Assembly (NCBI GenBank): GCA_026394215.1
Contig: JAPKYR010000182.1
Span: 1 to 47,019, forward strand
DNA: 47,019 bases
Origin: a bacterium
Lineage (GTDB): Bacteria; JAJVIF01; JAPKYR01
Direction of reading: 5' to 3'
The translations under genes were made by a program, and so were the position numbers. The notes under the pieces were generated by a model that saw nothing but the letters and a program-made list of their open reading frames with translations, searched no databases and was not told the DNA's origin. Shown piece after piece: positions 2,005-47,019 of this stretch. How positions within the stretch are numbered: the stretch's first letter is position 1; every line of letters starts with the position of its first letter.

Positions 2005-4323
2005 TCAGGGCAATGGGAAAACGTCACGTTTTCGTGGAACTGAGAGAAGAATCCACGCAAGCACGATAATTATCCCCGCACTCGATACAATCGCGCCTGT
2101 CCTGACTGAATCGGGCCTGTATTGAAAATCAATCACATGCTGACCGGGTCCGGTGTTGATTTCGCAGAATACTCCCCGCCAAGGGCTGATATCGACTGGG
2201 TTTCCGTCGACCGTCACCTGCCAGTTTTTATCGTACGAAATTTCCACGATTACGGAATAGGATGGAGTGTCGATTTCGGTTCGAGCGCCGTTTCTTCTTA
2301 ATTCAAGTATGCCGACGGACAATTTTCCGGATTCCGTAAGCGCGACCGCCCAGACTCTCGGCTCCTCACGATCGACTTTGAATAACTTCGCGCCTTCTCC
2401 CCATGAATCTGTCATATCGATATCTGTAACCTGCGTGTAGCCCCGAATTTCCGTTACCCTCCCCGATGTGACGATATAATCAACCCCGAGGAAATCCAGA
2501 TTTGCCGCGGTGACCGGGTCGAGAATTCCGTCTGCCGCGCCCGATTCGGTGAAGCCATCCGCAATTTCACCTCGAACAAGCCGATCCCATTCGAGAGGAC
2601 GAAGCGGGGTGTATGGATCCAGTGTCTGGACGTTTTTGAATATCGATGTATTCCCGGCGCACATGTCCGGAAAATCGGTACGCGGAGATAAATCAAAGAG
2701 ATCAAGCTCGGAAAAATGTCCGACATCGACCGCGAGGAATCTCGCAGGCTGCCCGTCGGACCTTTGGAGACGGTCGAAAAATTCCAACTCGTCATTGAAT
2801 TTTCCGGCATTCATCGTGAATAGCAGTGTGATTGGAAAAATTACCGCCACATGGAATAACAGATATAGATAGAATGTTGAAAGTGCGATTTTCGATGCTC
2901 CACCAATCGTTCTGGTAATCCACCATGTCAGAAGCGCATCGACAATGAGAATTAATCCACCGATAAGAATCGCGGTCGATCGGTTTGCGATAAGAAGAAA
3001 AGCGACGAGAAGCACAAACGCGATTACGATTGAAACTACCAGCGGTTTTTTCGGAATTAGTCCCACCGATTTTTCACTGGAGGTTTCATGTGCTGATGAA
3101 ATATCGGAGAGAAAATGCATAGACAGCGCTATCAACGCGACAAGAATTCCAAGCGCAAGCCGCCCCTGATATCTGAACATGGAAAAAATCGGGAGTTTGA
3201 CTAGCAGATGATTTACCGGGTTGGACATCCCGAACGCGAGGAAAAGCGCAAGCCCTCCCATGACAATCAATGGTGCGTCTTTTCTCCAGTTGATTTTAAT
3301 CCCTGCGAGACGAAGCATCGCGAGAACCGACGGCAATAACCCGACATACATAACACTCGACACCCATCCGACAACTTCGGTCTGTTTTCCGTAGGCGGGG
3401 AAATAAAAAGCCGACGCAAGCCGCAGGGGATTCAGCCAGTTGCTCCCAAGCGTATAATTTACAAATTCGCGGACAGTAGTCGCGGAAAATTCCGATATCG
3501 GAATCCATATAATCGCGCCAAGCATCGCGGCGCCGACTGCAAGCGATAGAAGCACCCCGATCGATTTTTTTAATTTAGCCCCGATATTTTTCTTTTCCGA
3601 AAAAACATGCCCGGTAAGATAAAACACAAGGAGCAATCCCTGATAGAATGCCATCTGTCCGCTTCCGATAGTCAGTAAAATTCCTCCGGTTAATGCTATC
3701 AATCCTCCGTAAAACCACTGCTTTCGGGTATCGGACTCGTGGAGAATCCGATCGGTCAGCCATAATAAAAGCGGAAACCATACCACTGACTGGAAAAGCG
3801 CCATCGACGAAATATGGAACATAAGGAACGGCGCGGTCTGGAAAAGCACCGCCCCCATGAAACTGAATAATGGTTTGATTTCCCTTCCCCTGAGCCAGAG
3901 GTCCATAAAAAGCCCGGCCATTATGAAATGCGCGATATAAGTCAGCCCCGCGAGATAGAAAAAATTTCCGGGAAGGTCAAGGAGAATATTGCCAGGGTAA
4001 AATAAACCCGATTCACTTTCGGCGAGCTGGGGCATCCCGGCATATAAATAATGATTCCATAGGGGAAGGGCGCCGTCCTTGAGTGACTGGATATCGTACC
4101 ATTTCAGCGGAAGATTCAGGCGCGTGACGTCCCATCCCGCAAACTGATCTATCCCCAGAAGTTCGGGCAGACAGATACGGCATGGCAGAATTACCAGAAT
4201 CAGGCGATAGAAATCGGTTTTGCGGGTCCCCTTTCCGCTCATGGGCCAATAATAACATTTTGACATTTTGTATGCTTGCCCATTTTCCACGCAACTTCCA
4301 CTATTTCCCCCCGTCCATTTCAT
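2005..4323 (-). CDS. YfhO-like polytopic membrane protein
   Basis: 772-aa ORF with many TM segments, motif LPLWNHYLYAGMPQLAESESGLFYPGN, and a beta-rich C-terminal tail with NWQVTVDGNPVDI. The start may lie downstream of 4323. Confidence 0.75.
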   Translation of the reverse strand: MKWTGGNSGSCVENGQAYKMSKCYYWPMSGKGTRKTDFYRLILVILPCRICLPELLGIDQFAGWDVTRLNLPLKWYDIQSLKDGALPLWNHYLYAGMPQLAESESGLFYPGNILLDLPGNFFYLAGLTYIAHFIMAGLFMDLWLRGREIKPLFSFMGAVLFQTAPFLMFHISSMALFQSVVWFPLLLWLTDRILHESDTRKQWFYGGLIALTGGILLTIGSGQMAFYQGLLLVFYLTGHVFSEKKNIGAKLKKSIGVLLSLAVGAAMLGAIIWIPISEFSATTVREFVNYTLGSNWLNPLRLASAFYFPAYGKQTEVVGWVSSVMYVGLLPSVLAMLRLAGIKINWRKDAPLIVMGGLALFLAFGMSNPVNHLLVKLPIFSMFRYQGRLALGILVALIALSMHFLSDISSAHETSSEKSVGLIPKKPLVVSIVIAFVLLVAFLLIANRSTAILIGGLILIVDALLTWWITRTIGGASKIALSTFYLYLLFHVAVIFPITLLFTMNAGKFNDELEFFDRLQRSDGQPARFLAVDVGHFSELDLFDLSPRTDFPDMCAGNTSIFKNVQTLDPYTPLRPLEWDRLVRGEIADGFTESGAADGILDPVTAANLDFLGVDYIVTSGRVTEIRGYTQVTDIDMTDSWGEGAKLFKVDREEPRVWAVALTESGKLSVGILELRRNGARTEIDTPSYSVIVEISYDKNWQVTVDGNPVDISPWRGVFCEINTGPGQHVIDFQYRPDSVRTGAIVSSAGIIIVLAWILLSVPRKRDVFPLP

Positions 4324-6445: not shown

Positions 6446-7975
6446 ATGCAAGTTGTAGGACCAGTTGTAGGAATTTTAATAACCATCTTTGTTATCTTTA
6501 TCGTTGTAGCTTTGAGAATAAAAAAAGCGGGTCCAAACGAAGTTCTGGTTATATCAGGTCTACGCCGTTATTTGAGGCTGGCTGACGGATCCAGAATTAA
6601 AATTGGGTTCCGGATGGTTAAGGGGGGTATGTCATTCATAATACCCATTATCGAAAAAGTTGACCGTTTATCATTGGAGATTATGACCCTGGATGTCAAG
6701 ACACCTGAGGTTTATACGCTAAAAGGCGTCCCGGTAATTGTTGATGGCGTCGCGCAGATAAAAATAAAAGGAGACCAGATTTCAATATCCACCGCCGCCG
6801 AACAATTCCTTTCCATGGGAACCGATAAAATAGCCAACGTCGCTCTTCAAACCGTTGAAGGTCATCTCCGCGCAATTCTCGGCACACTGACAGTCGAAGA
6901 AATCTACTCGAACCGCGACGCGTTTGCTGCAAAAGTGCAGGAGGTCGCAAGTTCCGACCTCGCGAATATGGGTCTCACGATCATATCGTTCACGATCAGG
7001 GACATTCGCGATAACCAGGGATACCTCGACGCACTCGGAAAACCGAGAATAGCCCAGGTCAAGAGAGACGCGACTATCGGACAGGCGGAAGCCGACAGGG
7101 ACGCGACAATCAAGAGCGCGCAGGCGTATCAGGAAGGCCAGGAAGCAAAATTCGTCGCCGACACCGGTATCGCGCAGGCTGAGCGGGATTACCAGATGAA
7201 CGTCGCGGCCTACACCGCGTCGGTCAATAAGGAAAAAGCGAAAGCCGACCTCGCCTACGATCTGCAGCGATATGAAACCGCTCAATTGGTCAAGGCGCAG
7301 GAAATCCAGGTCGATATTGTCGAGCGCGAGAAACGTATCGAGGTCCAGGAAAAGGAAATTCAGAGAAAACAACGCGAACTCACCGCAACAATCGAGAAAC
7401 CGGCAGAAGCCGAGAAATTCAAGGTCACAACCCTTGCCGACGCTGAAAAATACAAGTTGCAAATAGAGGCGGACGGCGCGGCTTCGGCTATAAAACTGAA
7501 AGGTTTCGCGGCTGCGGAAGTCATCCAGAAAACCGGAGAATCGGAAGCAGCGGCGAACAAGGCGAGGGGTCTCGCGCAGGCAGATGTTATCAAGGCACAG
7601 GGATTCGCCGAAGCCGAAGCGATGGAAAAGAAAGCCTTGTCGTGGCGCCAGTATAACGAAGCGGCTATTGTCCAGATGTTTGTGGACAAGATTCCCGAGA
7701 TCGCGAGAGCAATCGCGGAACCTCTTACCAGAACCGATAAGATCGTCATTATCAGTAACAGTGGCGGAGATTCGGATGGACATGTCGGCGCGGGCGCGAG
7801 CAAAATCACGCGCGACGTAACCGACATAATTTCCCAGATTCCGCCGGTGATCGAAGGTCTGACCGGTATCTCGATGGAAACGCTTATTAAGAATATTCCC
7901 GCGATTAAACAGGGAATGTACGATAATAAGGGCGAAGGCTGGACCGCACCACCTAAGGAACCAAAGAGTAAGTAA
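6446..7975 (+). CDS. floT: Flotillin (SPFH-domain protein)
   Basis: KKAGPNEVLVISG, SPFH domain, long Ala/Glu-rich coiled coil with AEAEKFKVTTLADAEKYKL. SD aaggag precedes the ATG. Confidence 0.93.
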   Translation: MQVVGPVVGILITIFVIFIVVALRIKKAGPNEVLVISGLRRYLRLADGSRIKIGFRMVKGGMSFIIPIIEKVDRLSLEIMTLDVKTPEVYTLKGVPVIVDGVAQIKIKGDQISISTAAEQFLSMGTDKIANVALQTVEGHLRAILGTLTVEEIYSNRDAFAAKVQEVASSDLANMGLTIISFTIRDIRDNQGYLDALGKPRIAQVKRDATIGQAEADRDATIKSAQAYQEGQEAKFVADTGIAQAERDYQMNVAAYTASVNKEKAKADLAYDLQRYETAQLVKAQEIQVDIVEREKRIEVQEKEIQRKQRELTATIEKPAEAEKFKVTTLADAEKYKLQIEADGAASAIKLKGFAAAEVIQKTGESEAAANKARGLAQADVIKAQGFAEAEAMEKKALSWRQYNEAAIVQMFVDKIPEIARAIAEPLTRTDKIVIISNSGGDSDGHVGAGASKITRDVTDIISQIPPVIEGLTGISMETLIKNIPAIKQGMYDNKGEGWTAPPKEPKSK

Positions 7976-32499: not shown

Positions 32500-32789
32500 A
32501 ATTAAAAACCTCCCGGATTGGATAATATCCTTTGCCGCTGGGTAGTATTATAAAATATAAATACTCAGGTTACAATTTTATAATACCTTAACGAAAGGGA
32601 AAAATACAGTAAAAAATCGACTGGAATCGGGTTGCTTTGATTATTTTAGGGCTGAGAATATACCGGAAATGCCCTGAGATTACCAGGCAGCGCATTGTTT
32701 CGGAATTTTTATGTCACGGATCCAGGCGTCTTTTCGACCGGACATCATGGGAATTTTGCCGGCTGAAAAAGCGAAAGGTTGCCAGTCTT

Positions 32790-32818
32790 TTGACTTGTTA
32801 TTGATGGTTTTATATAAT
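32790..32818 (+). promoter_or_regulatory. Near-consensus sigma70-type promoter for the PKD/LVIVD lipoprotein
   Basis: TTGACT-17 nt-TATAAT; places the true start at 32858, not 32711. Confidence 0.75.
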
Positions 32819-32857
32819 TTCCTGTCTAAAGGCGTTACATCCCGGGAGGTTGTCAGA

Positions 32858-35605
32858 ATGAGAATTCATCATTTATTAATTATCGCAACGATACTGCTCA
32901 TTTTCGGATGCTCGGGACATGGTTCACCTCCGACTGTACCGGACGAATCGGCGCCGGTCGCGATTGCAAAAGCCGATCCGAATCCCCAGGCGGTAAATTT
33001 TCCTGTCAGTTTTTCGGCATCTGACTCAACCGATCCGGACGGTGGAACCATCCAGCTCTATGAGTGGGACTGGAATAACGACGGCACTTACGACCAGACT
33101 GGCGAGAATGTCGATCATACATGGATTGAGACCGGCACTTACCAAGTCCAGCTTCGGCTATTGGATGACGAGGGTATAACTGATATCCTTGATGATCCAC
33201 TGGAAATTACAATCAATAATAACCTGCCTCCCGAAGCGTGCGGTGAAGCCGATCCATTAACTACCGTTGTCTGTGAGCCCGTACATTTTACCGATTGCGG
33301 TTCCGACGCTGTTAAAGGAGCAATGCTCGTCCGGTATGAATGGGACTGGAATAATGACGGTACATACGATGAACAGGGCGCCGATGTTTACCATACCTGG
33401 GATATACCGGGCACATACCTGGTGATGTATCGCGTGACTGATTTCAATGGTGCGACTGACGAGATCTTATCCCCAATCGAAATTACGGTTATAAACGCAT
33501 TGCCATCCGCAGTTGCGGTTGCAGACAGCAATCCGGATGTAGGCGCCATCGACCATTTTGACGGGACCGGGTCATATGACAATGACTGCGAAGGCGTTGC
33601 GATTACGAAGTGGGAATGGGATTGGGACAACGATGGGACATACGACGAGGAGGGAGCTGAGGTTGATCACGTCTGGGATTTTCCGGGCACCTACTATGTG
33701 CAACTCCGGGTTACCGATGATGAAGGGGAAACCGACCTTCTTGATGCACCGCTGGAAATAATTATTCAGGATTTTACATTCAATCCTGTTGATATCACCC
33801 CACCCTGGCTTGCCTTCACCCCTTATGATATTGCAATAGATGGGAATTATGCTTATATCGCGGGTAGATACGGATTGCATATTTTTGACATTTCTGATCC
33901 TGCCAATCCCATATGGGTGAATTTTGTCGGTGCGTCGGCGGATGATTGGCGTGTTGACGTGTCAGGCGGGTACGCGTACATGATTGGTATTAAAAGTCTT
34001 GAAATAATCAATATAGATCCTCCCGAGTCCGCTTACATCGTGAATTCAATCACCCTGTGGGAAGACGATCCTCATGATATAGCCGTATCAGGCGGTTATG
34101 CATGTGTGATGAGTTATAGTAGTCACACTATTAAGATATTCGACATAGATCCTCCGGAGTCGGCATACGTCGTGAGTCAAGTCAGCACGCAGTCGGATTA
34201 TGGGCTTGCTTTAGCCATGTCAGGCGGGTACGCGTATTTTGTTACTGCCGAACATACATATATTGGTGGATATTATAATTCTTATTATTTTCTTCATATA
34301 ATAGAAATAAGCCCTCTTGGATCCGCACACATCGTGAACCAAATACCCGTATGGTATACACGTTATATTTCCGTTTCTGGCGGTTACGCGTATTTGAGTG
34401 AAAGTAACGGTCTTAGGATAATCGACATTGAGCCTCCTGAATCCGCATACACCGTAAATTCTGTCAATACGGGGCAGCAGAATCCATATGGCGTAGCCGT
34501 GTCAGGCGGGTACGCGTATTTGGTTGCTGCAGATGTGCAAGAGAGTAGTCTCTTAATGATCGACATAGATCCTCCCGAGTCCGCATACATCGCGAATACA
34601 GTCGACACACCGTTTCAGTATCTTGGTCGGATTGCCGTGTCCGGGGGGTATGCGTATGCGACGAGTAGATATTTAGGTCTACTGGTAATCGACATAGAAC
34701 CTCTCAATGATGCATACTGCGCAGGGGCATTTTACTCGCTATTTGACTCACGTGATGTAGCCGTGTCCGGCGGATATGCGTATGTGGCGGATGGTTATGG
34801 TTATTTTAAGATAGTCGACATTGAGTCTCCCTATTCCCCTTACATCGTGAATGCAATAACCACGCAGATTGAGGATGCACAAGCTGTAGAAGTGTCCAAC
34901 GGATACGCGTACATAGCAGATAACGCGCCTCATCATGAAGATCAGAGTCTTCAGATAATCGATATAGACCCTCCAGGTTCTGCATATTTAGTGAATGAAG
35001 TAACGATAACGGATTCTTATGGTGTTGAAGATGTGACCGTATCCGGCGGGTACGCGTATGCGGCGATGGGGGCTAGTCTTCAGATAATCGATATAGACTC
35101 TCCCGATTCCGCATACATCGTAAATTCAGTCGAAATGCCGGCGTATGCTAATAGTGTTACTGTGTCAGGCAGCTACGCGTATGTGACATGTCTTCAGTTC
35201 GGCCTTCAGATTATCGATATAAACCCTCCAGAGTCCGCATATATCGTTAATACAGTCGTCACGGAACATGCAAATGATGTAGCTGTATCCGGAGGGTACG
35301 CGTATGTAGCAGATGATTATTATGGCGGTCTTAAAATAATCGACATAGACCCTCCCGAGTCCGCATATATCGTTAATACAGTCGACACACCGGGGTGGGC
35401 ATTGGGTGTAGTTGTGTCCGGCAGCTATGCGTATGTGGCGGATGGAGATGATAAAGGCCTTCAGATAATCGATATAGACCCTCCTGAATCCGCGTACATC
35501 GTAGATTCAGTCGACACAGCGAATGCAAGGAGAGTGGCAGTATCCGGTGGTTACGCGTATGTCGCGGATGGTTATGACGGTTTGCGGATAATTCAGTTGT
35601 GGTAA
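32858..35605 (+). CDS. Lipoprotein with three PKD domains and 14 LVIVD-like propeller repeats
   Basis: SD gggaggt, MRIHHLLIIATILLIFGCSG lipobox; three YEWDWNNDGTYD PKD units; repeats VSGGYAYVAD..GLQIIDIDPPESAYIVNTV. Confidence 0.88.
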   Translation: MRIHHLLIIATILLIFGCSGHGSPPTVPDESAPVAIAKADPNPQAVNFPVSFSASDSTDPDGGTIQLYEWDWNNDGTYDQTGENVDHTWIETGTYQVQLRLLDDEGITDILDDPLEITINNNLPPEACGEADPLTTVVCEPVHFTDCGSDAVKGAMLVRYEWDWNNDGTYDEQGADVYHTWDIPGTYLVMYRVTDFNGATDEILSPIEITVINALPSAVAVADSNPDVGAIDHFDGTGSYDNDCEGVAITKWEWDWDNDGTYDEEGAEVDHVWDFPGTYYVQLRVTDDEGETDLLDAPLEIIIQDFTFNPVDITPPWLAFTPYDIAIDGNYAYIAGRYGLHIFDISDPANPIWVNFVGASADDWRVDVSGGYAYMIGIKSLEIINIDPPESAYIVNSITLWEDDPHDIAVSGGYACVMSYSSHTIKIFDIDPPESAYVVSQVSTQSDYGLALAMSGGYAYFVTAEHTYIGGYYNSYYFLHIIEISPLGSAHIVNQIPVWYTRYISVSGGYAYLSESNGLRIIDIEPPESAYTVNSVNTGQQNPYGVAVSGGYAYLVAADVQESSLLMIDIDPPESAYIANTVDTPFQYLGRIAVSGGYAYATSRYLGLLVIDIEPLNDAYCAGAFYSLFDSRDVAVSGGYAYVADGYGYFKIVDIESPYSPYIVNAITTQIEDAQAVEVSNGYAYIADNAPHHEDQSLQIIDIDPPGSAYLVNEVTITDSYGVEDVTVSGGYAYAAMGASLQIIDIDSPDSAYIVNSVEMPAYANSVTVSGSYAYVTCLQFGLQIIDINPPESAYIVNTVVTEHANDVAVSGGYAYVADDYYGGLKIIDIDPPESAYIVNTVDTPGWALGVVVSGSYAYVADGDDKGLQIIDIDPPESAYIVDSVDTANARRVAVSGGYAYVADGYDGLRIIQLW

Positions 35606-35670
35606 ACCTTGCCTGCCGATCCAGTTTTCCCTTGTTGTCACTACTCCCCAATTTTGCTGATCGGTGAGAC

Positions 35671-36969
35671 TTATGAAAAATGCTGAATAAGCAGGTTCAC
35701 CATATGCAGTTGGTCTTCCGTGCCGCCCATCTCACGTATCGAATGCATCGATACCATCGGATTACCGATATCCACCGCCCTTATCCCCAGACGGCTTGCG
35801 GTCATCGGACCGATCGTGCTTCCCGTACCGACATCGGTTCTTGCCACAAAAGTCTGTAACGGGACCTCCGCCCTCTTCGCGCATTTTTCGAGATGTTCCT
35901 TCGCTTCGATCTGAGTCGCATAATTCTGCATCGCGTTGACCTTCATAACCGGCCCGCCATTCAGATAAAGATAATGTCTGGGTTCATGCGCTTCGGGATA
36001 ATTCGGATTCAAAGCATGCGCGCCATCGCAGGAAATAAAAATTGAATTCGCAAGGGCGCGAAAATAGTCCTCGCGCGAATTTTCCGTCCCCATGCACAAA
36101 CGTTCGAGCACAGTGTCTAAGAATCCCGATCGCGCCCCCTGCATTGTCTGCGAGCCGACCTCCTCGTTATCGAATAATGCCACCACCTGCGAAAACGGCA
36201 CATTATCGGGTGCTTTTAAGAGCGCTTTTATCGCTGCATGGCAACTCGACAGATTATCAAGACTCCGGCTAAAGACGAATTCCTCGTTCATTCCACCCAA
36301 TGTTCCGGGCTGGACATCGTATATTTCAATAGAATACGACGAAACCTTCGCGGGATCGACCCCGGCGGTTTTCGCGGTCAGCTTTTTCACCGGTTCCTCT
36401 TCAAGCGACTTTTCATCGCCAAGGCCGATCACCGGCGGCATATGATCCTGTTTGTTGAATTTAATTTCTTCGGTTTTATTGACCCTTATATGCGGAGCGA
36501 GGTCTGGGATTCGGCAGACCGGGCGTTTGACGTCGAATAGCACGACATCGCTCTCCCCTCCATCCTCAACCACCAGCCGCCCGGCAATTCCAAGGTCGCG
36601 ATCGAGCCATGAGTGGATAATCGGCCCGCCATAAATTTCCACACCAAGTTGCAGATACCCATTTTTCGAGTAAACACCGTTTGGTTTCAACCTCAAGCCC
36701 GGAAAATCGGTGTGCGCGCCGACGATCCTGAATCCCGCGCTCGCGTAACTGGCTGTCCCGACCCTCACCGCGATTAATGATGACCCGTTGCGCGTGAAAT
36801 AGACCCAGTCGCACGGCTTGACATCCCATTTATCTTTTTCATCAAGATGCCTGAACCCGACTGCCTCAAGACGTCTGATCGATTCCGCGACCGAGTGCGA
36901 TGCGGTCGGGGACGCCTCGATAAATTTAATCATATCCAGGGTGATGTCTTTAAATTTCTGGTCAACCAT
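35671..36969 (-). CDS. M18-family aminopeptidase
   Basis: SPTASHSVAESIRRLEAVGF, RIVGAHTDFPGLRLKP, SWLDRDLGIAGRL, FDNEEVGSQTMQGA, SCDGAHALNPNYPEAHEP, RTDVGTGSTIGPMTASRLGI, HSIREMGGTED. Confidence 0.95.
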   Translation of the reverse strand: MVDQKFKDITLDMIKFIEASPTASHSVAESIRRLEAVGFRHLDEKDKWDVKPCDWVYFTRNGSSLIAVRVGTASYASAGFRIVGAHTDFPGLRLKPNGVYSKNGYLQLGVEIYGGPIIHSWLDRDLGIAGRLVVEDGGESDVVLFDVKRPVCRIPDLAPHIRVNKTEEIKFNKQDHMPPVIGLGDEKSLEEEPVKKLTAKTAGVDPAKVSSYSIEIYDVQPGTLGGMNEEFVFSRSLDNLSSCHAAIKALLKAPDNVPFSQVVALFDNEEVGSQTMQGARSGFLDTVLERLCMGTENSREDYFRALANSIFISCDGAHALNPNYPEAHEPRHYLYLNGGPVMKVNAMQNYATQIEAKEHLEKCAKRAEVPLQTFVARTDVGTGSTIGPMTASRLGIRAVDIGNPMVSMHSIREMGGTEDQLHMVNLLIQHFS

Positions 36970-37238
36970 TTTGGTTCTCCTGACAATTCCGGTCCCAAAT
37001 GATATTTATATCATAAAAATACGCGTTCCGGGCTTCCAAAAACGGAACGCCCGGAAATATTTACCATTGACTGCAGATTCGGAAAGCCCGAACCGTATCT
37101 AAATATTATATGACGCAACGGCGTCTAACCTGACTATTTTTTTGTTTTTGTGTTAAGATTATGTCGTGGAGAGATTCTCAAATTCAGTCTGAATTCTCCA
37201 ACCCTCATGCCGGGAACGGCAAAACACGAGGTGTGTAA

Positions 37239-39902
37239 ATGTTTTACCGATTTATCGCGGTCCTGGCTTTAAGCATCACGCTGTTCACTTCCTGCAGTGG
37301 CGGCAGTGTTTCAGTAACCTCACCATCAAGCGACCCGAGCCAGCCCCAAATCTCTCAGGACCGGAACGACTCATCCCGATACCTCCTCGGCTATTACACA
37401 ATTTCAATCGATTCCGAAACCGGCGCGGCTGATATCGTCCCGCTTCGAACCACTCAATTTACGGCTAATGTTCTCAGAATTCTCCAACCGCCGGCGAACC
37501 CGGTGAATCTTGTCAGCGTTCAGGCGCTGGATATTTCCCACATTGCGGAGGGTTATATTGAGGTAAATTTCGGGATCAGACATCCGATTCCAGGTAACCC
37601 TATATCCCGTGCTTTCGACCTTCGCGGGATTCTTATCTCGAACGGGACGAAAGCATCGGTTCATGATCCGACCGCGATTTATGCGGACGTCGATGAAACA
37701 AGGCTTGTAAACGCCGATGGATACACGCGGTGGTGGAACGCGCAGGAATTTACTTCGTTCGAATGCCTGTTCGGCTACACAAAAGGGCAGATGGGCTTTC
37801 CGGTTTATCCAACAGCGACATTAAATGGTTATAAATATTATTCTTCGGCTTTCGATTACGATGAGCCGGTATGGGAACTCGACCCGGCATCGCGCGGGAC
37901 GTTCGAATCCGGCACTGCCGTTCTTAAACGTCCTATGTTTATTCAATTCGCGATGAACTGCGACAAACCGGATTTTACATTCAATTACGCAATAGATTTT
38001 TCGTGGGATCTTCCGGATAAGTCCGGCGCTCCCAATTATCCGGTGGACTCGTTCCCGCTGACAGCGAATATGGCTGAAGCTTATTGTGTCAGCGTCCTTC
38101 AGGGTGAGAGCACCGCATGGTATCAGGACTCGACAAGCAGCGGCGGCGAAATAAATCTGGGAATTCGAGTCTATGACTGGCAGGCTGTGGCCGACCCAAA
38201 AGGCGTCGCTAATGAAATCGACAGTATCTGGCTTGAATCCCCGGCGCTTAATGGACCGATCGATGTCATGCCGACGGCAACTGTCCTTCCGGACGGACCG
38301 ACATCAAGCGTTTTTGAAGTTTCACTCGGCAACCTCACTCTGACCCATTCGGGCGAAGAAGAGATGCTTGTATTTGTCGAGACGTCCGACGGAATCGGAT
38401 ACGAACCTCAAATTCAGGGCGGGGAAAATTTTGATTATCCCGACGCGCCGCTTGGATCATACGTTCTGACCTCGGTTCATATCGGGACCGAAAGTAGCAC
38501 CGTGCCTGCGCCCGTTGTGATCAGTATTGATCCGAATTTCGCGCAATCGGGCGATCAACTTACCGATGTAATTGTCCAGGGTCGGTTTTTCCAGGACGGC
38601 GCGCAGGTTGAATTAAGAAATGCGGATTACGGGAACATTGAATTCGAAAACGAAGTTATGATGGGTGGTGGAACGCAGATAACATGCGATCTCAACCTGG
38701 CCCTGGTTCATAACGGCATATACGACGTGGCGGTGATTAATCCCGACATGCAGGAAGGAGTTCTTGAGGACGGATTCACTGTCGACTGCGCGGATGGCAT
38801 GCATGAATACGGCGGGAAATATTTTCTTACTGGCGGACTATCCTGGAATTTCAATTGTCAGAGAGGCGATCTGGCAATTCTTGAGGCGGGAAGCCATGCG
38901 GGAGAATGTGTAGTCAAAAGAGATATTGACCAGTTCGGCGACTATACCGGGTACTATGTCGCATTCGATCCCGATATTCCCGGCGATACACCTGCAACCG
39001 ATTACTTCTCACTTCCCGGAAGAATTGATGGTAGTACAAACTATGTCGGGATGACCGCACAGATCGACCAGAATCCGATGAATGCCCAGATCGGGGTAGT
39101 CAATGGGAGAATGTTCGACACGGTGCAGATCATCGATGAGGACGGGGTCAATGTCGATTCTGTTGTGATCGAGACAACTTCGGATGCGTATCCCGGAAAA
39201 ATTTCCGTGATACCGGGCATGGATTTTGACAAGGACGGGGACTTATGGATCGTGACCGACCTTCGCGGCGAATGGCCCGGACCGCCTCAGGAAATTCTGC
39301 CGCCTGTATGGCAGCTCAGGCATTATGAGCTTCAGCCGTCAAATCCGTATTATGTCGAAAATCTCGCCGACCGTCTTGAGATCAATGACGATCTGACCGT
39401 GACCGGTACCGGCGGACCTGTGATCTGCAACTGGGTCGCGGATATCGCGATCAGCTACGCGGAAGATTCCCTGTTCGTTTTTGCCAACAGTTCCAGCGGC
39501 GAGATTTTTGTGAAATACGATATAAGCGTATCGCCTCCGCAATGGGTCGCTAATGCCGATTTGTATCCGGAATCGATGGCATTCTGCCCAAATCCATATT
39601 CCGGGACAACAAGGGTGGATATCGAATTCGATCACTCCGATCTATCGGTCGAAAATTGCCGCCTGATGGTCATGTACCAGACATGGGACGGGTCGATCCA
39701 CCTTCACCTTATGAGGATCGATACGGATTTTAATATTCTCAACGATGTTGTGCTCGGACCGAATTTCGGATCGTGGGACAACCCGCACTGCATGGCGATC
39801 AACACCGATCCCGATCTACGAAATATGATCATGATCGATATGGATTCCGCGCCGCCGCACAACGACTTTTTCTACTTCCCGATGCCGTCTGAGGGTTGGT
39901 AG
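37239..39902 (+). CDS. Lipoprotein: shared N-terminal module plus IPT/TIG-like and propeller-like C-terminus
   Basis: LFTSCSG lipobox; YLLGYYTISID...VPLRTTQFTANVLRILQPP; LVNADGYTRWWNAQEFTS; LGIRVYDWQA; PVVISIDPNFAQSGDQLTDVIVQGRFF. Confidence 0.83.
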   Translation: MFYRFIAVLALSITLFTSCSGGSVSVTSPSSDPSQPQISQDRNDSSRYLLGYYTISIDSETGAADIVPLRTTQFTANVLRILQPPANPVNLVSVQALDISHIAEGYIEVNFGIRHPIPGNPISRAFDLRGILISNGTKASVHDPTAIYADVDETRLVNADGYTRWWNAQEFTSFECLFGYTKGQMGFPVYPTATLNGYKYYSSAFDYDEPVWELDPASRGTFESGTAVLKRPMFIQFAMNCDKPDFTFNYAIDFSWDLPDKSGAPNYPVDSFPLTANMAEAYCVSVLQGESTAWYQDSTSSGGEINLGIRVYDWQAVADPKGVANEIDSIWLESPALNGPIDVMPTATVLPDGPTSSVFEVSLGNLTLTHSGEEEMLVFVETSDGIGYEPQIQGGENFDYPDAPLGSYVLTSVHIGTESSTVPAPVVISIDPNFAQSGDQLTDVIVQGRFFQDGAQVELRNADYGNIEFENEVMMGGGTQITCDLNLALVHNGIYDVAVINPDMQEGVLEDGFTVDCADGMHEYGGKYFLTGGLSWNFNCQRGDLAILEAGSHAGECVVKRDIDQFGDYTGYYVAFDPDIPGDTPATDYFSLPGRIDGSTNYVGMTAQIDQNPMNAQIGVVNGRMFDTVQIIDEDGVNVDSVVIETTSDAYPGKISVIPGMDFDKDGDLWIVTDLRGEWPGPPQEILPPVWQLRHYELQPSNPYYVENLADRLEINDDLTVTGTGGPVICNWVADIAISYAEDSLFVFANSSSGEIFVKYDISVSPPQWVANADLYPESMAFCPNPYSGTTRVDIEFDHSDLSVENCRLMVMYQTWDGSIHLHLMRIDTDFNILNDVVLGPNFGSWDNPHCMAINTDPDLRNMIMIDMDSAPPHNDFFYFPMPSEGW

Positions 39903-39942
39903 AAAATCGGGTTCCCCCATATATCGACAGCATCAGGCAGAT

Positions 39943-42774
39943 TTACGGCCCATATCGCGCGACAAAGATATCCACATAACCGGCTGCAGTTAGGATTATC
40001 TCATTCGGCTCGCCAGGTCCGAATATTGCAGAATATCTGAAGTCTCCTGTTACAACTGCAGAATCATCCGTAAGCGCCGTGATTCCTTCACCAGCATCAA
40101 CATCTAACCCTCCCGCACGTTTCGCCCAAACGAGTAAGCCATCCGGGTTGTAATGCGCGACGAAGATAGCATGCCAACCATCGCAAATCAGTACTGTCTC
40201 GTTAGGCTCGCCCTCTCCGAATATGCCTGATTCAGCAAAATATCCCGTCACGACAGTCGAATTGTCCGAAAGTGTCGTGATTCCTGAGCCATGATTAAAG
40301 GTTTCCTCACCACCTGCGCATTTCGCCCATGCGAGTGTACCGTCAGTGTTGAAACGCGCGATGAAGATAGCGGAATCGGGTGTTGAAGCGCAAGTCATAA
40401 CAGTCTCGTTTGGCTCCCCAGGTCCGAAGATGGTATTGCCCCGACACCATCCTGTCACGACTGTTGAATTATCCGAAAGTGTCGTGATCCCATAGCCAGA
40501 GCTGGTTCCATAGTCGCTTTTCGCCCAGGCGAGTGTGCCATCCGGGTTGTAACGCGCAATGAAGAAAGCATCATAACCATTGGAAGTCAGGATTGTCTCG
40601 TTAGGCTCGCCCTCTCCAAAAGTGGCCGAGTCTTCAAACACTCCTGTCACGACTGTCGAATCGTCCGAAAGCGATGTGATTCCATAGCCTCTGTCATCGT
40701 GGTAAATTCCTTTGGCGCGTTTCGCCCACGCGAGTGTGCCATCTGGATTGTAACGCGCGATGAAGATATCCGAATCTCCAACGGAAGTCAGGACTGTCTC
40801 GTTCGGCTCACCTGTGCCGAATGTAGCCGTTGCAGAAAAATACCCTGTTACGACCGTCGAATCGTCGGAAAGCGAGGTGATTCCAAAGCCCCCATCAAAA
40901 TAAATCCCTCCTGCCATTTTCGCCCAGATGAGGATGCCATCAGGATTGTAATGCGCGATGAAGATATCGGAATTTCCAGCGGAAGTCAGGACTGTCTCAT
41001 TAGGCTCGCCCGGTCCAAATGTGGCTGATCCTCCAAAGAATCCTGTCACGACTGTCGAATTGTCCGAAAGCGTCGTGATTCCATCGCCAGATCCTCCGGC
41101 GCTCTTCGCCCAAGCGAGTGTACCGTCCGGGTTGTAGCGCGCGATGAATAAACCACCAGAAGTCAGGACTGTCTGGTTCGGCTCACCAGGCCCGAATGTG
41201 GCCGACCCATAAAACACTCCTGTCACGACTGTCGAATTATCTGAAAGTGCCGTGATTGCATTGCCCTTTTCAAAACCGTGTCCTCCGGCGTCTTTCACCC
41301 AGCAAAGACACCCTGGTACTGCAGGGAGAATATAAACCTCCAATGGTTCGTCAAGAGTGTCTGTCGCACCTTCATCATCGGTGACCCGCAATTGCACATA
41401 ATATGTGCCTGCATCGCTCCATGTGTGCTCGATTTCTTCCCCAGTGTCATCAAATATACCATCATTATCCCAGTCCCACTCATAAAGCTGGATTGACCCG
41501 CCATCGGGATCGTACGAATTCGAACCTGAAAAACTAATCGGACAATTTTCATACTGCGAATTCGGTACAGCTTCAGCAATAGCTACCGGATTTACATATA
41601 CTTTCTCAACGACTGTCAGAGTCTGCAATTGATATGCAGTCAGATCGAGCCACGGTTTTCCGACCGGATCATTCTCGTCCGCTACTACTCCGATAAGGCA
41701 TATGTAATCGCCGATAGGAGCAAGTTTAGTATTTGAAACTGTTACTTCATAACTCGCAAAACCGCTCCCATCGCTTATCCATGCAGCGGTCGATACACCG
41801 TCGAAAAGCTCCGGACATTCGACTAACGGGTCGTGATATGTCGATTTTCCCTGCCAGTCATAGACATCGATCAACAATATCGTCTCGCCACCCGCGTCTG
41901 TTAAGCCCTGCCCTATCTGTTCTTCAGAAACAGAAATATTCCAGGGCTCCAGGCAGTTCGCATCGGTACCAAAATCATTGAGCGGATCGTCGACCGGTTC
42001 CGAAATCGGCGGCGCCCATGAGACATCGACGGCATATCCGATGACAAAAGTGTCGGACGGAAGCTTCATCGAGAGTGTCTTCACGTCGAGCGACCCGGCG
42101 TAAAAGGCATTGCGGTTATTAGCCGGATCGTCGGTACGGAAATAAATAAATCCATTGATATCCGAATTGGGCACTGTCTGTGTCGATAATTTGCCCGGAA
42201 AATATTTCTGAAAATCCCCGACAGGTGCGGTTAGTGTCGAGCCGTTATACAATGCGGTGTAGCCGTCGGCGTTGAGAAGCAAGCCTTCGCCAATGGAAGG
42301 ATCGGAAATCGACTTCCCGATCGATGGAAACGCATGGCTTCCGTTGAACATGATAATTGTCCTGATATCGAAAACGGAGTATAAAAGTCCGTCGAACGGG
42401 TGATCGATTCGAATATCCAGATCCAGGTACTGATAACCCGGTCCTGGAAAATTGAAACCCATGATCCTGAAACAGTCGTAGCACGGCGCTCCCTCGAGAA
42501 ATTTCAGGACGTTAAAATGGATTTCCCCTTCACGTACCGGGATTATCTCGATTTTCGGGCTGTCGGGATTTTCCACATCGACATAAATAAAATTGTACGC
42601 AAGCAGGTAATGGCTCCCCTCGCTTGAATCAGGCGCTGCCGCAGCATTCCCCGTTAATTCCGACGGGGAAAATGCCGCATCGGGAGTGACAGGCTGCGAG
42701 CCCTGTCCGGCACAGCCGGAAATAATCAACCACATCATTGCGATGATAAGAAGAATAAAACATGATCGGTGCAT
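39943..42774 (-). CDS. Lipoprotein: shared N-terminal module, one PKD domain, seven SBBP-like repeats
   Basis: WLIISGC lipobox; YLLAYNFIYVDV...IPVREGEIHFNVLKFL; LLNADGYTALYNGSTLTAP; LLIDVYDWQG; PKD LYEWDWDNDGIFDDTGEEIEHTW; seven GITTLSDNSTVVTGxFxxSATFGPGEPNETVLT units. Confidence 0.87.
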   Translation of the reverse strand: MHRSCFILLIIAMMWLIISGCAGQGSQPVTPDAAFSPSELTGNAAAAPDSSEGSHYLLAYNFIYVDVENPDSPKIEIIPVREGEIHFNVLKFLEGAPCYDCFRIMGFNFPGPGYQYLDLDIRIDHPFDGLLYSVFDIRTIIMFNGSHAFPSIGKSISDPSIGEGLLLNADGYTALYNGSTLTAPVGDFQKYFPGKLSTQTVPNSDINGFIYFRTDDPANNRNAFYAGSLDVKTLSMKLPSDTFVIGYAVDVSWAPPISEPVDDPLNDFGTDANCLEPWNISVSEEQIGQGLTDAGGETILLIDVYDWQGKSTYHDPLVECPELFDGVSTAAWISDGSGFASYEVTVSNTKLAPIGDYICLIGVVADENDPVGKPWLDLTAYQLQTLTVVEKVYVNPVAIAEAVPNSQYENCPISFSGSNSYDPDGGSIQLYEWDWDNDGIFDDTGEEIEHTWSDAGTYYVQLRVTDDEGATDTLDEPLEVYILPAVPGCLCWVKDAGGHGFEKGNAITALSDNSTVVTGVFYGSATFGPGEPNQTVLTSGGLFIARYNPDGTLAWAKSAGGSGDGITTLSDNSTVVTGFFGGSATFGPGEPNETVLTSAGNSDIFIAHYNPDGILIWAKMAGGIYFDGGFGITSLSDDSTVVTGYFSATATFGTGEPNETVLTSVGDSDIFIARYNPDGTLAWAKRAKGIYHDDRGYGITSLSDDSTVVTGVFEDSATFGEGEPNETILTSNGYDAFFIARYNPDGTLAWAKSDYGTSSGYGITTLSDNSTVVTGWCRGNTIFGPGEPNETVMTCASTPDSAIFIARFNTDGTLAWAKCAGGEETFNHGSGITTLSDNSTVVTGYFAESGIFGEGEPNETVLICDGWHAIFVAHYNPDGLLVWAKRAGGLDVDAGEGITALTDDSAVVTGDFRYSAIFGPGEPNEIILTAAGYVDIFVARYGP

Positions 42775-42861: not shown

Positions 42862-44913
42862 TTATAGACTGTTAGTAACTTCCACCAGTTCGGGATTCGC
42901 ATGCTGCCCGTTTGTGGCGCGTTCCTGAGCAAGTCCGTAGCGTTGTTCAACAGATGCAAGTATGGCTGTGAGCATTTCCTTGTAGCCCATGCCCTGAATT
43001 TTTGCCATTTTCGCGAGATGGCCATCCCAGCACCAGCCGGGATTCGGATTAACCTCGAGCAGCTTTGGGTTGCCTTCGGAATCGAGACGCCAGTCAAAGC
43101 GGCAGTAGTCGCGGCATTCAAGCCGCTCATACAACCTTAAACAGCAGGCAATCACGAATTTCTCGGTTTCTTCCGGAAGCTGCGCGGGGATGGATGTGAT
43201 TTTAAAATAGGGGGAATCGGGAAGCCACTTTGCCTCGTATCCGCACAACCTTGGAAGATCCTGCGGCAGCAAGGAATAATCTTCCTCGATTATCGGAAGC
43301 ACCGTGTAAGAATCGGGAGGATTACCGATTATCCCGACCGAAATATCGGAACCGGTCAGGAATTCCTCGACAAGGATCGGTTTATCGTATCCGAATTTGT
43401 CCTTGATTTCCTTGATTGCGTTTTCCAATTCCTTGACGTTGTTCGCGATACTTCTCTGGGTAATCCCAAAGCTCGAATCGCCAAAATTCGGCTTCGTGAT
43501 AACCGGAAAGCCGAATGGAATTTCCATGATCGTGTCTTCCGGCCTGATAATATCCGCTTCAGCGACGGGAATATCCATTTCCTTCGCGAGCCCCCTTGTG
43601 AGCGACTTGTCATAACAAATGGCAAGGCACTGAGGACCTGCCCCGGAGTAAGGGATGTTTAACGCTTCAAGCAGGCTCGGCACATGAAGCTCCAGCCTCG
43701 GATTGTTGTTGAAGCCCTCATCGCAGAGGTTTAATACTACATCGGTTTTACCCTTAAGTTCGGTAAGGTCGTGAATTAAAGTATCGTGATTGTCGATGAA
43801 CTTGAAACTGTATTCGGGAAGGCCCCTCAATGCGTCTTTCATCTGGTCGATAGTATAAAAATCGTCGTCATCGAAAACCGATTGAGGTTTCAGCGGATCG
43901 AATTTCCGAGGATCTCCAAGTATGACGACGACATTTCTGACATCCTTTTTTTTGCTCTTCGACTTGGACCATTCTTTCTTGACCTGCGCCGTCAGGATCA
44001 TCCTCTTCTCCATCATACCGAGATCCTGGTTACGCTGCGAATCCGGGATGATCGTTCCATGACTTTCGAAGCTTGTGTAACCGGCCGCGAGAAGCAGTTT
44101 CCCCATGCTCTCGTCCGTGTATAACCGTTCAGCATAGAACTGGTCGGCGATGACGCCCTTATCGACATGGGTCACGACTTCCCTTGAGACCAGCCTGTGA
44201 CCGTCGATTGAAAGCGATCTTTCCCTGCAGACGAACATGTTATTGCTGATCCATTCCCATGATCGCGGCTGATAATTATTTTTCAGGAACCCTCCGTCCG
44301 CGACATCGAGAAGAATACGTCCCCACGGTTTCAGGACACGGAACACTTCCTTGAGCACGCGCATGTCGTCCTGCATGGTTTCGAAATAGCCGATGCTGTT
44401 TCCAAGAATCATAACGACATCGAATGTATCCGGCGAAAATGGAAGCTTTCTCGCGTCCCCTTCGCGGAATTTAGCCACGAGGTTTTCTTTTTTCGCCCTG
44501 CTGCGCGCCCTCTGGATCAGGTAATGCGAGCGATCGAAACCGACGATATTGCTGAATCCCCTTCGCGATAATTCCAGCGAATGCCGTCCCTGTCCGCAGC
44601 ACAGATCGAGGATGTGATCATCCTTGTTAATGTTTAACAGAGTGCTGAAATGATCGATTTCAGTGGCCGTCAGACGGTTATCGTCGACTACATCGCCATC
44701 CGTTTTCATGTAGATGGAGTTGAAAATGTACCGCCACCAGTCTGACTTGACATGCTCTTCGAGGTTTGGGACCTCTCCCTTCATGATCTGCTTGCCCGAT
44801 TTGCTTTTCTCTTTTTCTTTATCCTTTTCCTTACTTCCAGGATCAGGTACCTCGCTTTTGTCGTTTACCATTTTTTTCCTACCCTCTTGTCGGAATATTA
44901 ATTTGTAAACCAC
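42862..44913 (-). CDS. Fusion: class I SAM methyltransferase plus ATP-grasp (D-Ala-D-Ala ligase-like)
   Basis: N-terminal HILDLCCGQGRHSLELSRRG and FDVVMILGNSIGYF; C-terminal VVVILGD, FPVITKPNFGDSSFGI, PILVEEFLTGSDISVGIIG, CRFDWRLDSEGNPKLLEVNPNPGW. The true start may be the inner ATG of MVNDKSEV. Confidence 0.85.
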   Translation of the reverse strand: MVYKLIFRQEGRKKMVNDKSEVPDPGSKEKDKEKEKSKSGKQIMKGEVPNLEEHVKSDWWRYIFNSIYMKTDGDVVDDNRLTATEIDHFSTLLNINKDDHILDLCCGQGRHSLELSRRGFSNIVGFDRSHYLIQRARSRAKKENLVAKFREGDARKLPFSPDTFDVVMILGNSIGYFETMQDDMRVLKEVFRVLKPWGRILLDVADGGFLKNNYQPRSWEWISNNMFVCRERSLSIDGHRLVSREVVTHVDKGVIADQFYAERLYTDESMGKLLLAAGYTSFESHGTIIPDSQRNQDLGMMEKRMILTAQVKKEWSKSKSKKKDVRNVVVILGDPRKFDPLKPQSVFDDDDFYTIDQMKDALRGLPEYSFKFIDNHDTLIHDLTELKGKTDVVLNLCDEGFNNNPRLELHVPSLLEALNIPYSGAGPQCLAICYDKSLTRGLAKEMDIPVAEADIIRPEDTIMEIPFGFPVITKPNFGDSSFGITQRSIANNVKELENAIKEIKDKFGYDKPILVEEFLTGSDISVGIIGNPPDSYTVLPIIEEDYSLLPQDLPRLCGYEAKWLPDSPYFKITSIPAQLPEETEKFVIACCLRLYERLECRDYCRFDWRLDSEGNPKLLEVNPNPGWCWDGHLAKMAKIQGMGYKEMLTAILASVEQRYGLAQERATNGQHANPELVEVTNSL

Positions 44914-45133: not shown

Positions 45134-47019
45134 ATGTCGCGGATCGACCAATGGCGTCTTGTGAGAGCCGACCTGTATATCTTCGGGCTGCTGCTTCTGC
45201 TTGTCCTCTGGACATTCCGCGGCGTCATTCTCGGCACGCACGATCCGTTCATGAGTTCGCTAAGGAATTACGAGCCGTGGAAGAGCCAGCTTCCGTCAGC
45301 GGAATGGTCGCGACCCGAAAGTTTCGCCGACGATCCCACCACGCAGACATACCCGTGGGCGGTCTTCGCGCACGAGAATCTTCAGAACGGCGATTTTCCG
45401 CTCTGGAATTCAAGGATGTTTTCCGGCACGCCATTCACCGCGAACCGTCTTACCGGGCTGTTCGATCCGCTCGTTCTGATTCCGGTCTGGCTTTTCAATC
45501 CGGTCACTGCCCTTTCAATAATTTATTTTATCCATTACATGCTTGCCGCATGGTTTATGTACTTATTTCTGAAATCGCTTGGAATCTCGCGTCCGGCATC
45601 GGCATTCGGGACAATCGCGTTCATTTTCCAGGGAGCGTATATACCCTGGATGGGATTTATCGTCGCCGACAAATGCTACATCGTGATGTCGATGTACTAC
45701 CTCCATCGCGCCTGCGCACTCAGGGACATCCGCGGAATCATCGGATTCATAATTTCATTTACGCTGCTGACTTTGGCAAGTTATCCGCAGATGGTCGTGT
45801 TCGGGATCTACATTTTTATCGCATGGGTATTGTTCGCGTACGGGGATGGTCTGAAGCCGGGATTAAAAAGGTTTTCCGGGCTTGCTATCATGCTTGTCGC
45901 GGTTTTCCTTCTCGGCGCGATGCAGAATCTTCCGACAATAGAATTTTTCCGGCAGTCGATACGCGCGCTTGCGGAATTCAATACGGAACTGCAGTCGATG
46001 ACCGACCTTGAGCGTCACACATCGCCCGCCTATCTCCTCGCGATTTTCTTCCCAACCCTGTGGGGCGATTACCTTGTCGATCCGATCAGCACACTGCCGC
46101 AATTTGTTCTGGGAATTTACAATCATACGTACATCGGGATTCTCGCGGCTTTCGGATTCCTGTTCTTCCCCATCGTCTGGCGAAACAGATTTGCAAAACT
46201 GTTCGCGATCATCGCGCTCTTCGGGCTTTTATGTCTCGCCTTCAACGGGTTTTACGAAGTGATAGTGAAAATCCTGCCCGGGTTCAGGATCAGCACGGTG
46301 AAGCCGGATTTCCTGACGCTGACTTCCATGATCATCGTCGCGAGCTTTGTCCTGGATAACATACTTTCCCGATTGAAAGCCGATGTCGATTTCACAAAAA
46401 AATTTGAAAAAGTATTTGGATTCCTGCTTCTCATGATGGTCGTGATTGGCGCGGGGTTTATGCTTGTACGCGTACTGCCGGTCGTCCTTCCGGTTCAGGT
46501 GTCTCTGGTTATTATGACAATATTCGGACATCTCATTTTTGTCTGGATCACGGCGATACTCATGTATGCTTACACGCGCGGACGTTTGAGCAACGGCGCT
46601 CTGGCGTCGGTGATAGTGATTCTCGCGATAATCGACCTTGTCCCTTATCATGAGCATTTCATGCCGCTGGTTCCAAAAGGGAAAACATGTTTCGAGACGG
46701 CGAGTATCGGATTCCTGGAAGAAAAAATGGGAGAGGATGGTCCGTTCCGGATTTTCAGAGACCGATCGACCATACTCGCGCCAAACTCACCAATGATCTA
46801 CGATCTCGATGAACCGGGCGGATTCGACAGCTTCGTGTCGGCGGACTACGCCCACTTTTTTAGATCGATCGATCCGTCAATGAGCAGAAATTCCAGGACA
46901 CTCGACCTTCCGTCCGATCCGATCCACTATTCGCAGCCGTTCTGGAATTTTCTTGGGATCAGGTACCTTCTGTTCACTGAAAAAAATGACTCGCTCCCAC
47001 CGCCATGGGAACCAGCATG
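45134..47019 (+). CDS. YfhO-like polytopic membrane protein, C-terminus cut by window end
   Basis: MSRIDQWRLVRADLYIFGLLLLLVLWTFRGVILG...NLQNGDFPLWNSRMFSGTPFTANRLTGLFDPL..., open to 47019. Missing from the ORF track because it is truncated. Confidence 0.8.
   Translation, partial: MSRIDQWRLVRADLYIFGLLLLLVLWTFRGVILGTHDPFMSSLRNYEPWKSQLPSAEWSRPESFADDPTTQTYPWAVFAHENLQNGDFPLWNSRMFSGTPFTANRLTGLFDPLVLIPVWLFNPVTALSIIYFIHYMLAAWFMYLFLKSLGISRPASAFGTIAFIFQGAYIPWMGFIVADKCYIVMSMYYLHRACALRDIRGIIGFIISFTLLTLASYPQMVVFGIYIFIAWVLFAYGDGLKPGLKRFSGLAIMLVAVFLLGAMQNLPTIEFFRQSIRALAEFNTELQSMTDLERHTSPAYLLAIFFPTLWGDYLVDPISTLPQFVLGIYNHTYIGILAAFGFLFFPIVWRNRFAKLFAIIALFGLLCLAFNGFYEVIVKILPGFRISTVKPDFLTLTSMIIVASFVLDNILSRLKADVDFTKKFEKVFGFLLLMMVVIGAGFMLVRVLPVVLPVQVSLVIMTIFGHLIFVWITAILMYAYTRGRLSNGALASVIVILAIIDLVPYHEHFMPLVPKGKTCFETASIGFLEEKMGEDGPFRIFRDRSTILAPNSPMIYDLDEPGGFDSFVSADYAHFFRSIDPSMSRNSRTLDLPSDPIHYSQPFWNFLGIRYLLFTEKNDSLPPPWEPA

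Follow-up and report, generated by a model that had tools for sequence, protein, structure and literature searches.

A gene in the 47,019-nucleotide window analyzed (the whole of contig JAPKYR010000182.1, bacterial assembly GCA_026394215.1) encodes, in one polypeptide chain, a class I SAM methyltransferase followed by an ATP-grasp ligase with a D-Ala-D-Ala ligase (Ddl) fold. Both cofactor machineries are intact, the acceptor site of the ligase is altered, and the two halves have been inherited together and have spread across phyla. The protein is a member of a horizontally spread family rather than a singleton. This unnamed fusion family is assembled from known domains and superfamilies and occurs, in scattered fashion, in no fewer than nine bacterial and archaeal groups. 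The sequence features incline us, with moderate confidence, to regard the protein as a self-contained bifunctional biosynthetic enzyme that would make a methylated aminoacyl amide or dipeptide.

The open reading frame (Table 1) contains no internal stop. A ribosome-binding-like sequence, GAGGGTAGG, is located at 44886-44878, 6-7 bases ahead of the in-frame ATG at 44871, and because of this proper spacing the likely product has 669 amino acids. AlphaFold2 modeling of the whole chain (pLDDT 71.5) gave two folded halves joined by a linker of low confidence (residues 313-322), with the N-terminus disordered. The initial annotation had described a single-chain fusion of a methyltransferase and an ATP-grasp ligase; the uninterrupted reading frame and Pfam matches for both halves bear this out, and all of the motifs that it quoted are present. 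An assembly artifact, whether two ORFs joined by a sequencing error or a frameshift, was rejected, as 36 genomes, including those of 35 relatives, encode the protein as a single chain (in one it is cut by a contig end). Neither half has lost its catalytic residues, since the SAM- and ATP/Mg-binding positions are kept. The gene and the window agree in GC content (49.4% and 49.2%), and thus there is no compositional sign of recent transfer.

Table 1. Features of the fusion gene and its divergent neighbor (positions in the window; residues numbered from the GTG start)
Feature	Position	Strand	Remarks
Fusion gene, longest ORF, GTG start	42862..44913	-	683 codons plus stop
Likely true start, ATG (residue 15 of the long ORF)	44869..44871	-	From the sequence
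N-terminal basic low-complexity tail (residues 15-45)	44779..44871	-	pLDDT under 50
Class I SAM methyltransferase half (residues 46-310)	43984..44778	-	Four-stranded cap, ~217-263
SAM motif I, ILDLCCGQGRH (residues 101-111)	44581..44613	-	36-row alignment
Basic linker (residues 311-325)	43939..43983	-	Alignment of relatives, charge comparison
ATP-grasp half, full D-Ala-D-Ala ligase fold (residues 326-660)	42934..43938	-	
GYEAKW (residues 558-563)	43225..43242	-	K562 = DdlB K215; W563 replaces catalytic Y216
EVNPNPGWCWDGH (residues 620-632)	43018..43056	-	E620 and N622 kept; G631/H632 replace DdlB S281/L282
YfhO-like multi-pass membrane protein gene, divergent	45134..47017	+	Cut by window end

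The methyltransferase half matches Methyltransf_25 (Pfam; residues 101-198, 77.7 bits, far above the cut-off) and, when modeled separately (pLDDT 82), resembles class I methyltransferases. It has the glycine-rich motif I, an acidic residue after strand 2, and the Rossmann-like sheet of this class, and residues G107, G109, R110, and the acidic D127 are invariant in all 36 rows of the alignment. An NS.GYF motif shows little or no variation, and the same is true of W219, W221, R230, E231, R232, D257, Q258, Y260, E262, and R263, which lie in or beside the cap strands; this conservation points to a single, strictly conserved substrate. The top PDB sequence match (101 bits) was NmbA (PDB 9RI2), which N-methylates the cysteine amine of bacillithiol (PMC12719100). 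NmbA has the same class I SAM fold and four-stranded cap and aligns over nearly the whole methyltransferase half, but it is a single-domain protein with 23% identity in the structural match. Bacillithiol was rejected as the substrate because BshC is encoded by none of 20 fusion carriers, whereas control genomes have it. Other folds near this half include CypM, CcbJ, TylM1, and glycine-sarcosine N-methyltransferase, and since C- and O-methyltransferases are also among the neighbors, N-methylation is a likelihood only. A PADLOC match to the anti-phage defense protein Mad2 of MADS was set aside, as it reflects the generic methyltransferase core (model positions 280-410 of 492). One relative (L040:7950-10067) carries an in-frame 7-residue tandem duplication (VFRVLKP VFRVLKP) within this half.

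The C-terminal half matches Dala_Dala_lig_C (Pfam; residues 446-652, 98.8 bits, far above the cut-off) and aligns to whole Ddl structures, including their N-terminal lobe (Foldseek; TM to target about 0.7-0.8). The two ATP lysines, the Mg ligands, and the Ddl fold are all present. DdlB residues K97, K144, E180, R255, D257, E270, and N272 correspond to K436, K474, E516, R605, D607, E620, and N622, which are kept, with Gln at 516 in five Planctomycetota rows. K215 is also shared with Ddl, and S150 (S480) is mostly kept. The differences lie elsewhere. In the alignment to E. coli DdlB, Trp takes the place of Y216 in each of the 35 rows that extend over this position, so that the E15-S150-Y216 triad is represented by D348, S480, and W563, and H63 is replaced by Glu. 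In Ddl, S281 and L282 hold the carboxylate of the second D-Ala. Here, residue 631 is Gly in 35 of 35 rows, and residue 632 is His except in five Planctomycetota, where it is Lys. The surrounding motif, GW(C/V)WDG(H/K), hardly varies (W627 and D630 in every row, W629 in 33/35). Compared with E. coli DdlB and Y. pestis Ddl, the ligase half shows about 20-24% identity in the structural match, and the fusion has an extra N-terminal methyltransferase. The best NCBIfam Ddl/Van model scored 126.5 bits against a cut-off of 243, and all other Ddl and Van models were also far below theirs. The fusion is not the cell's Ddl, as the same genome encodes a separate one beside a MurC-like gene (L002). With acceptor and triad residues altered and the cell's own Ddl encoded separately, we infer that the C-terminal half is a Ddl-fold ATP-grasp ligase with a different acceptor. 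The label "D-Ala-D-Ala-ligase-like" thus holds for the fold and the ATP/Mg residues and does not extend to D-Ala-D-Ala specificity.

The nearest stand-alone relatives of the ligase half are amino-acid-type ligases clustered with aminomutase or diaminopropionate genes. These Ddl-like ligases often occur in tandem, and most share the Trp at the Y216 position, but they are only about 28-36% identical, lack the methyltransferase, and belong to gene clusters, whereas the fusion is a lone gene. One such cluster, of a type carried by some Planctomycetota and other genomes (L102:6078-11661, minus strand), encodes a lysine-2,3-aminomutase-like radical SAM protein, a tandem pair of Ddl-like ligases, GNAT and histone-deacetylase-like proteins, and an MFS transporter. 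Related ligase and aminomutase genes are also present in L094, L098, and L099, and no description of this type of aminomutase-ligase cluster was found in open papers. On plasmid pTHIMO01 of Thioflavicoccus mobilis (L164:4479-9960), an operon encodes a diaminobutyrate transaminase, SbnA, an ornithine-cyclodeaminase-like protein, and a Ddl-like ligase, with KamA adjacent on the opposite strand. The clusters look like non-protein amino-acid pathways, and the plasmid operon like a pathway for a non-protein amino-acid peptide. Only ligase-half cousins of this kind were found on plasmids, and no fusion was found in phages.

Distribution of the fusion was examined by a seed scan with two strict peptide patterns in one genome per species, which recovered ten full-length fusions (59-68% identity). 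The carriers are labeled Actinomycetota, Altiarchaeota, Planctomycetota (two, one of them Sedimentisphaerales), Zixibacteria, Thermotogae, Spirochaetes, Thermodesulfobacteriales, Deltaproteobacteria RBG_13_61_14, and Methylomirabilis. In total, 35 further genomes encode the same architecture (roughly 50-69% identical), among them Spirochaetota, Planctomycetota, Thermodesulfobacteriota, Methylomirabilota, and one archaeal contig. Profile searches found full-length fusions in 11/392 Planctomycetota, 14/296 spirochaete-phylum, 2/29 archaeal-phylum (one broken by contig ends), and 2/58 Thermodesulfobacteriota genomes; these totals include the seed genomes and come from sampled genomes of each phylum, so they are lower bounds. 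The distribution is patchy, with 3-5% of the sampled Planctomycetota and Spirochaetota being carriers, and the nearest congener (G001, 82% complete) gave no match at 1e-20. Two genomes with fusion homologs, G556 and G598, each consist of one contig (2,472,645 and 2,560,222 bases, respectively). On the archaeal contig (L033), 40 bases separate TiaS from the fusion, and GatD is close by; both are archaeal genes, so the contig is not bacterial contamination.

The two halves share a common history. In the ligase tree, the fused halves fall into one clade, which lies among related stand-alone enzymes and is distinct from true Ddl, and the methyltransferase halves form a clade relative to the other methyltransferases sampled, on long outgroup branches. 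The pairwise distances measured for one half track those for the other (correlation 0.91, and 0.86 when only the main group is considered); 0 of 2000 permutations gave so high a value. Archaeal, spirochete, and planctomycete sequences are interleaved in the tree, and quick LG+G4 trees rejected monophyly of Spirochaetota (p-AU 3e-6) and of Planctomycetota (5e-5). One fusion clade, a common history of the halves, and rejection of phylum monophyly together indicate that the fusion unit spreads horizontally, and are most simply explained by a single fusion event, after which the gene was passed on horizontally in its intact form. No split ancestor was found in relatives. The sole methyltransferase-only copy (G497, L110 6942-7802) ends just ahead of the linker, and no ligase half was matched in that genome at 1e-8. 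It nests within the fusion clade with Spirochaetota (support 96) and thus represents a later loss of the ligase half. A planctomycete copy (G414, L112 about 6607-7205) is decayed, with a large internal deletion and stops.

Genes flanking the fusion were compared all against all in 30+ loci. No conserved neighbor emerged and a shared operon was accordingly rejected; the absence of obvious pathway partners reported in the initial annotation holds here and in all relatives examined. In L033, L149, and L156, a CitMHS-type transporter is encoded close to the fusion, but this is not a general feature. A graspetide (RiPP) precursor or exporter context likewise had no conserved neighbor in 30+ loci, a comparison that covers very short precursor ORFs only partly. 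The divergent neighbor has no Pfam match, and given 25% identity (E 2e-9) to the YfhO-family protein at 2005-4323, calling it "YfhO-like" is fair; it is not thought to be functionally linked to the fusion. Large predicted extracellular proteins (LVIVD, PKD repeats, delta-60/SBBP-type propeller) adjoin the fusion at 32711-42774 of the window; they are typical surface proteins, and no link between them and the fusion was found.

The earlier proposal of ligation plus methylation of a small molecule or peptide is consistent with everything found as to the two domains and the general chemistry, while its substrate and product can be given as likely classes only. The ATP-grasp half would activate a carboxylate, probably from an amino acid, by converting it to an acyl phosphate, and would join it to an amine. 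The acceptor would be something other than D-alanine, probably bound without a D-Ala-like carboxylate contact. The methyltransferase half would move a methyl group from SAM, most likely onto an amine, either of a substrate or of the ligated product, and a methylated aminoacyl amide or dipeptide would result. Since no partner gene travels with the fusion, all substrates are presumably common metabolites. The same pair of enzyme types is found in the mycosporine-like amino acid pathway, in which an O-methyltransferase acts along with the D-Ala-D-Ala-ligase homolog MysD, encoded by separate genes and likened here by type, not sequence. Methylation and ATP-dependent bond formation also cooperate on small molecules in the cystargolide/belactosin pathway (CysG/BelI; PMC11427300), although there the genes are separate and part of a large cluster, and the likeness is again one of enzyme type rather than sequence.

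The charged N-terminal stretch noted earlier is real, and although its sequence is variable across relatives, its positive charge is conserved. The tail is net-positive in 36/37 rows and the linker in most, whereas the protein body is net-negative. Such conserved basic tails would also fit RNA or protein binding, and the tail and linker might dock the enzyme on the ribosome, tRNA, or an acidic protein for amino-acid tagging and methylation. RimK and tubulin-tyrosine ligase tag macromolecules with an amino acid, and a lack of pathway partners anywhere would suit a housekeeping modifier. We nevertheless consider modification of a macromolecule unlikely, as the protein has no RNA-binding domain, its ligase half is Ddl-like and not RimK-like, its methyltransferase half is nearest to small-molecule and peptide N-methyltransferases, and its patchy distribution is unlike that of a housekeeping modifier.

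The methyltransferase might instead mask one carboxylate by methyl esterification, leaving the right group for the ligase to use. Loss of the S281/L282 carboxylate contacts would be expected if the acceptor had no free carboxylate, and carboxyl methylation by CysG, which precedes cystargolide assembly, is a precedent for transient methylation in a peptide pathway (PMC11427300). The nearest characterized methyltransferase is N-directed (PMC12719100), however, and no esterase accompanies the fusion gene, making such O-methylation quite improbable. It is more doubtful still that the halves are active in different reactions and joined for co-expression only. The low-confidence linker would allow this, and G497, which keeps its methyltransferase alone, implies that the halves need not be strictly coupled, but the linkage is kept in 36 genomes, the divergence of the halves is highly correlated, and just one loss of a half was seen. 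A variant D-Ala-D-X ligase for peptidoglycan, or a Van-type ligase, with an accessory methyltransferase is highly improbable: the full Ddl fold and the best PDB match of the profile (VanA, 103 bits) would agree with it, but the NCBIfam scores, the replaced acceptor and triad residues, the separate Ddl, and the presence of the fusion in archaea, which are not known to have D-Ala-D-Ala peptidoglycan, all argue against it.

A lone gene that is spread over several phyla and domains usually specifies a function that is both complete and portable. It is possible, if tentative, that the biosynthetic enzyme favored here constitutes a one-gene pathway, a single mobile protein making an undescribed methylated aminoacyl metabolite (e.g., a small thiol, solute, or metal ligand). 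Being made from universal metabolites, such a product could still be formed after transfer across phyla or into archaea without partners. It would then be common to many scattered lineages and so far overlooked, since automated annotation would label the protein a D-Ala-D-Ala ligase or generic methyltransferase. Neither Pfam nor NCBIfam has a model for the fused family, and no description of the fusion was found in open papers, a search that leaves an earlier mention possible in subscription journals.

A second, deeper subgroup was observed within Planctomycetota (L085, L086, L087, L088, and L074), about 48-53% identical to the main group. In its members, residue 632 is Lys, residue 516 is Gln, and the linker is rich in Ala and Pro; this subgroup may use a different acceptor.
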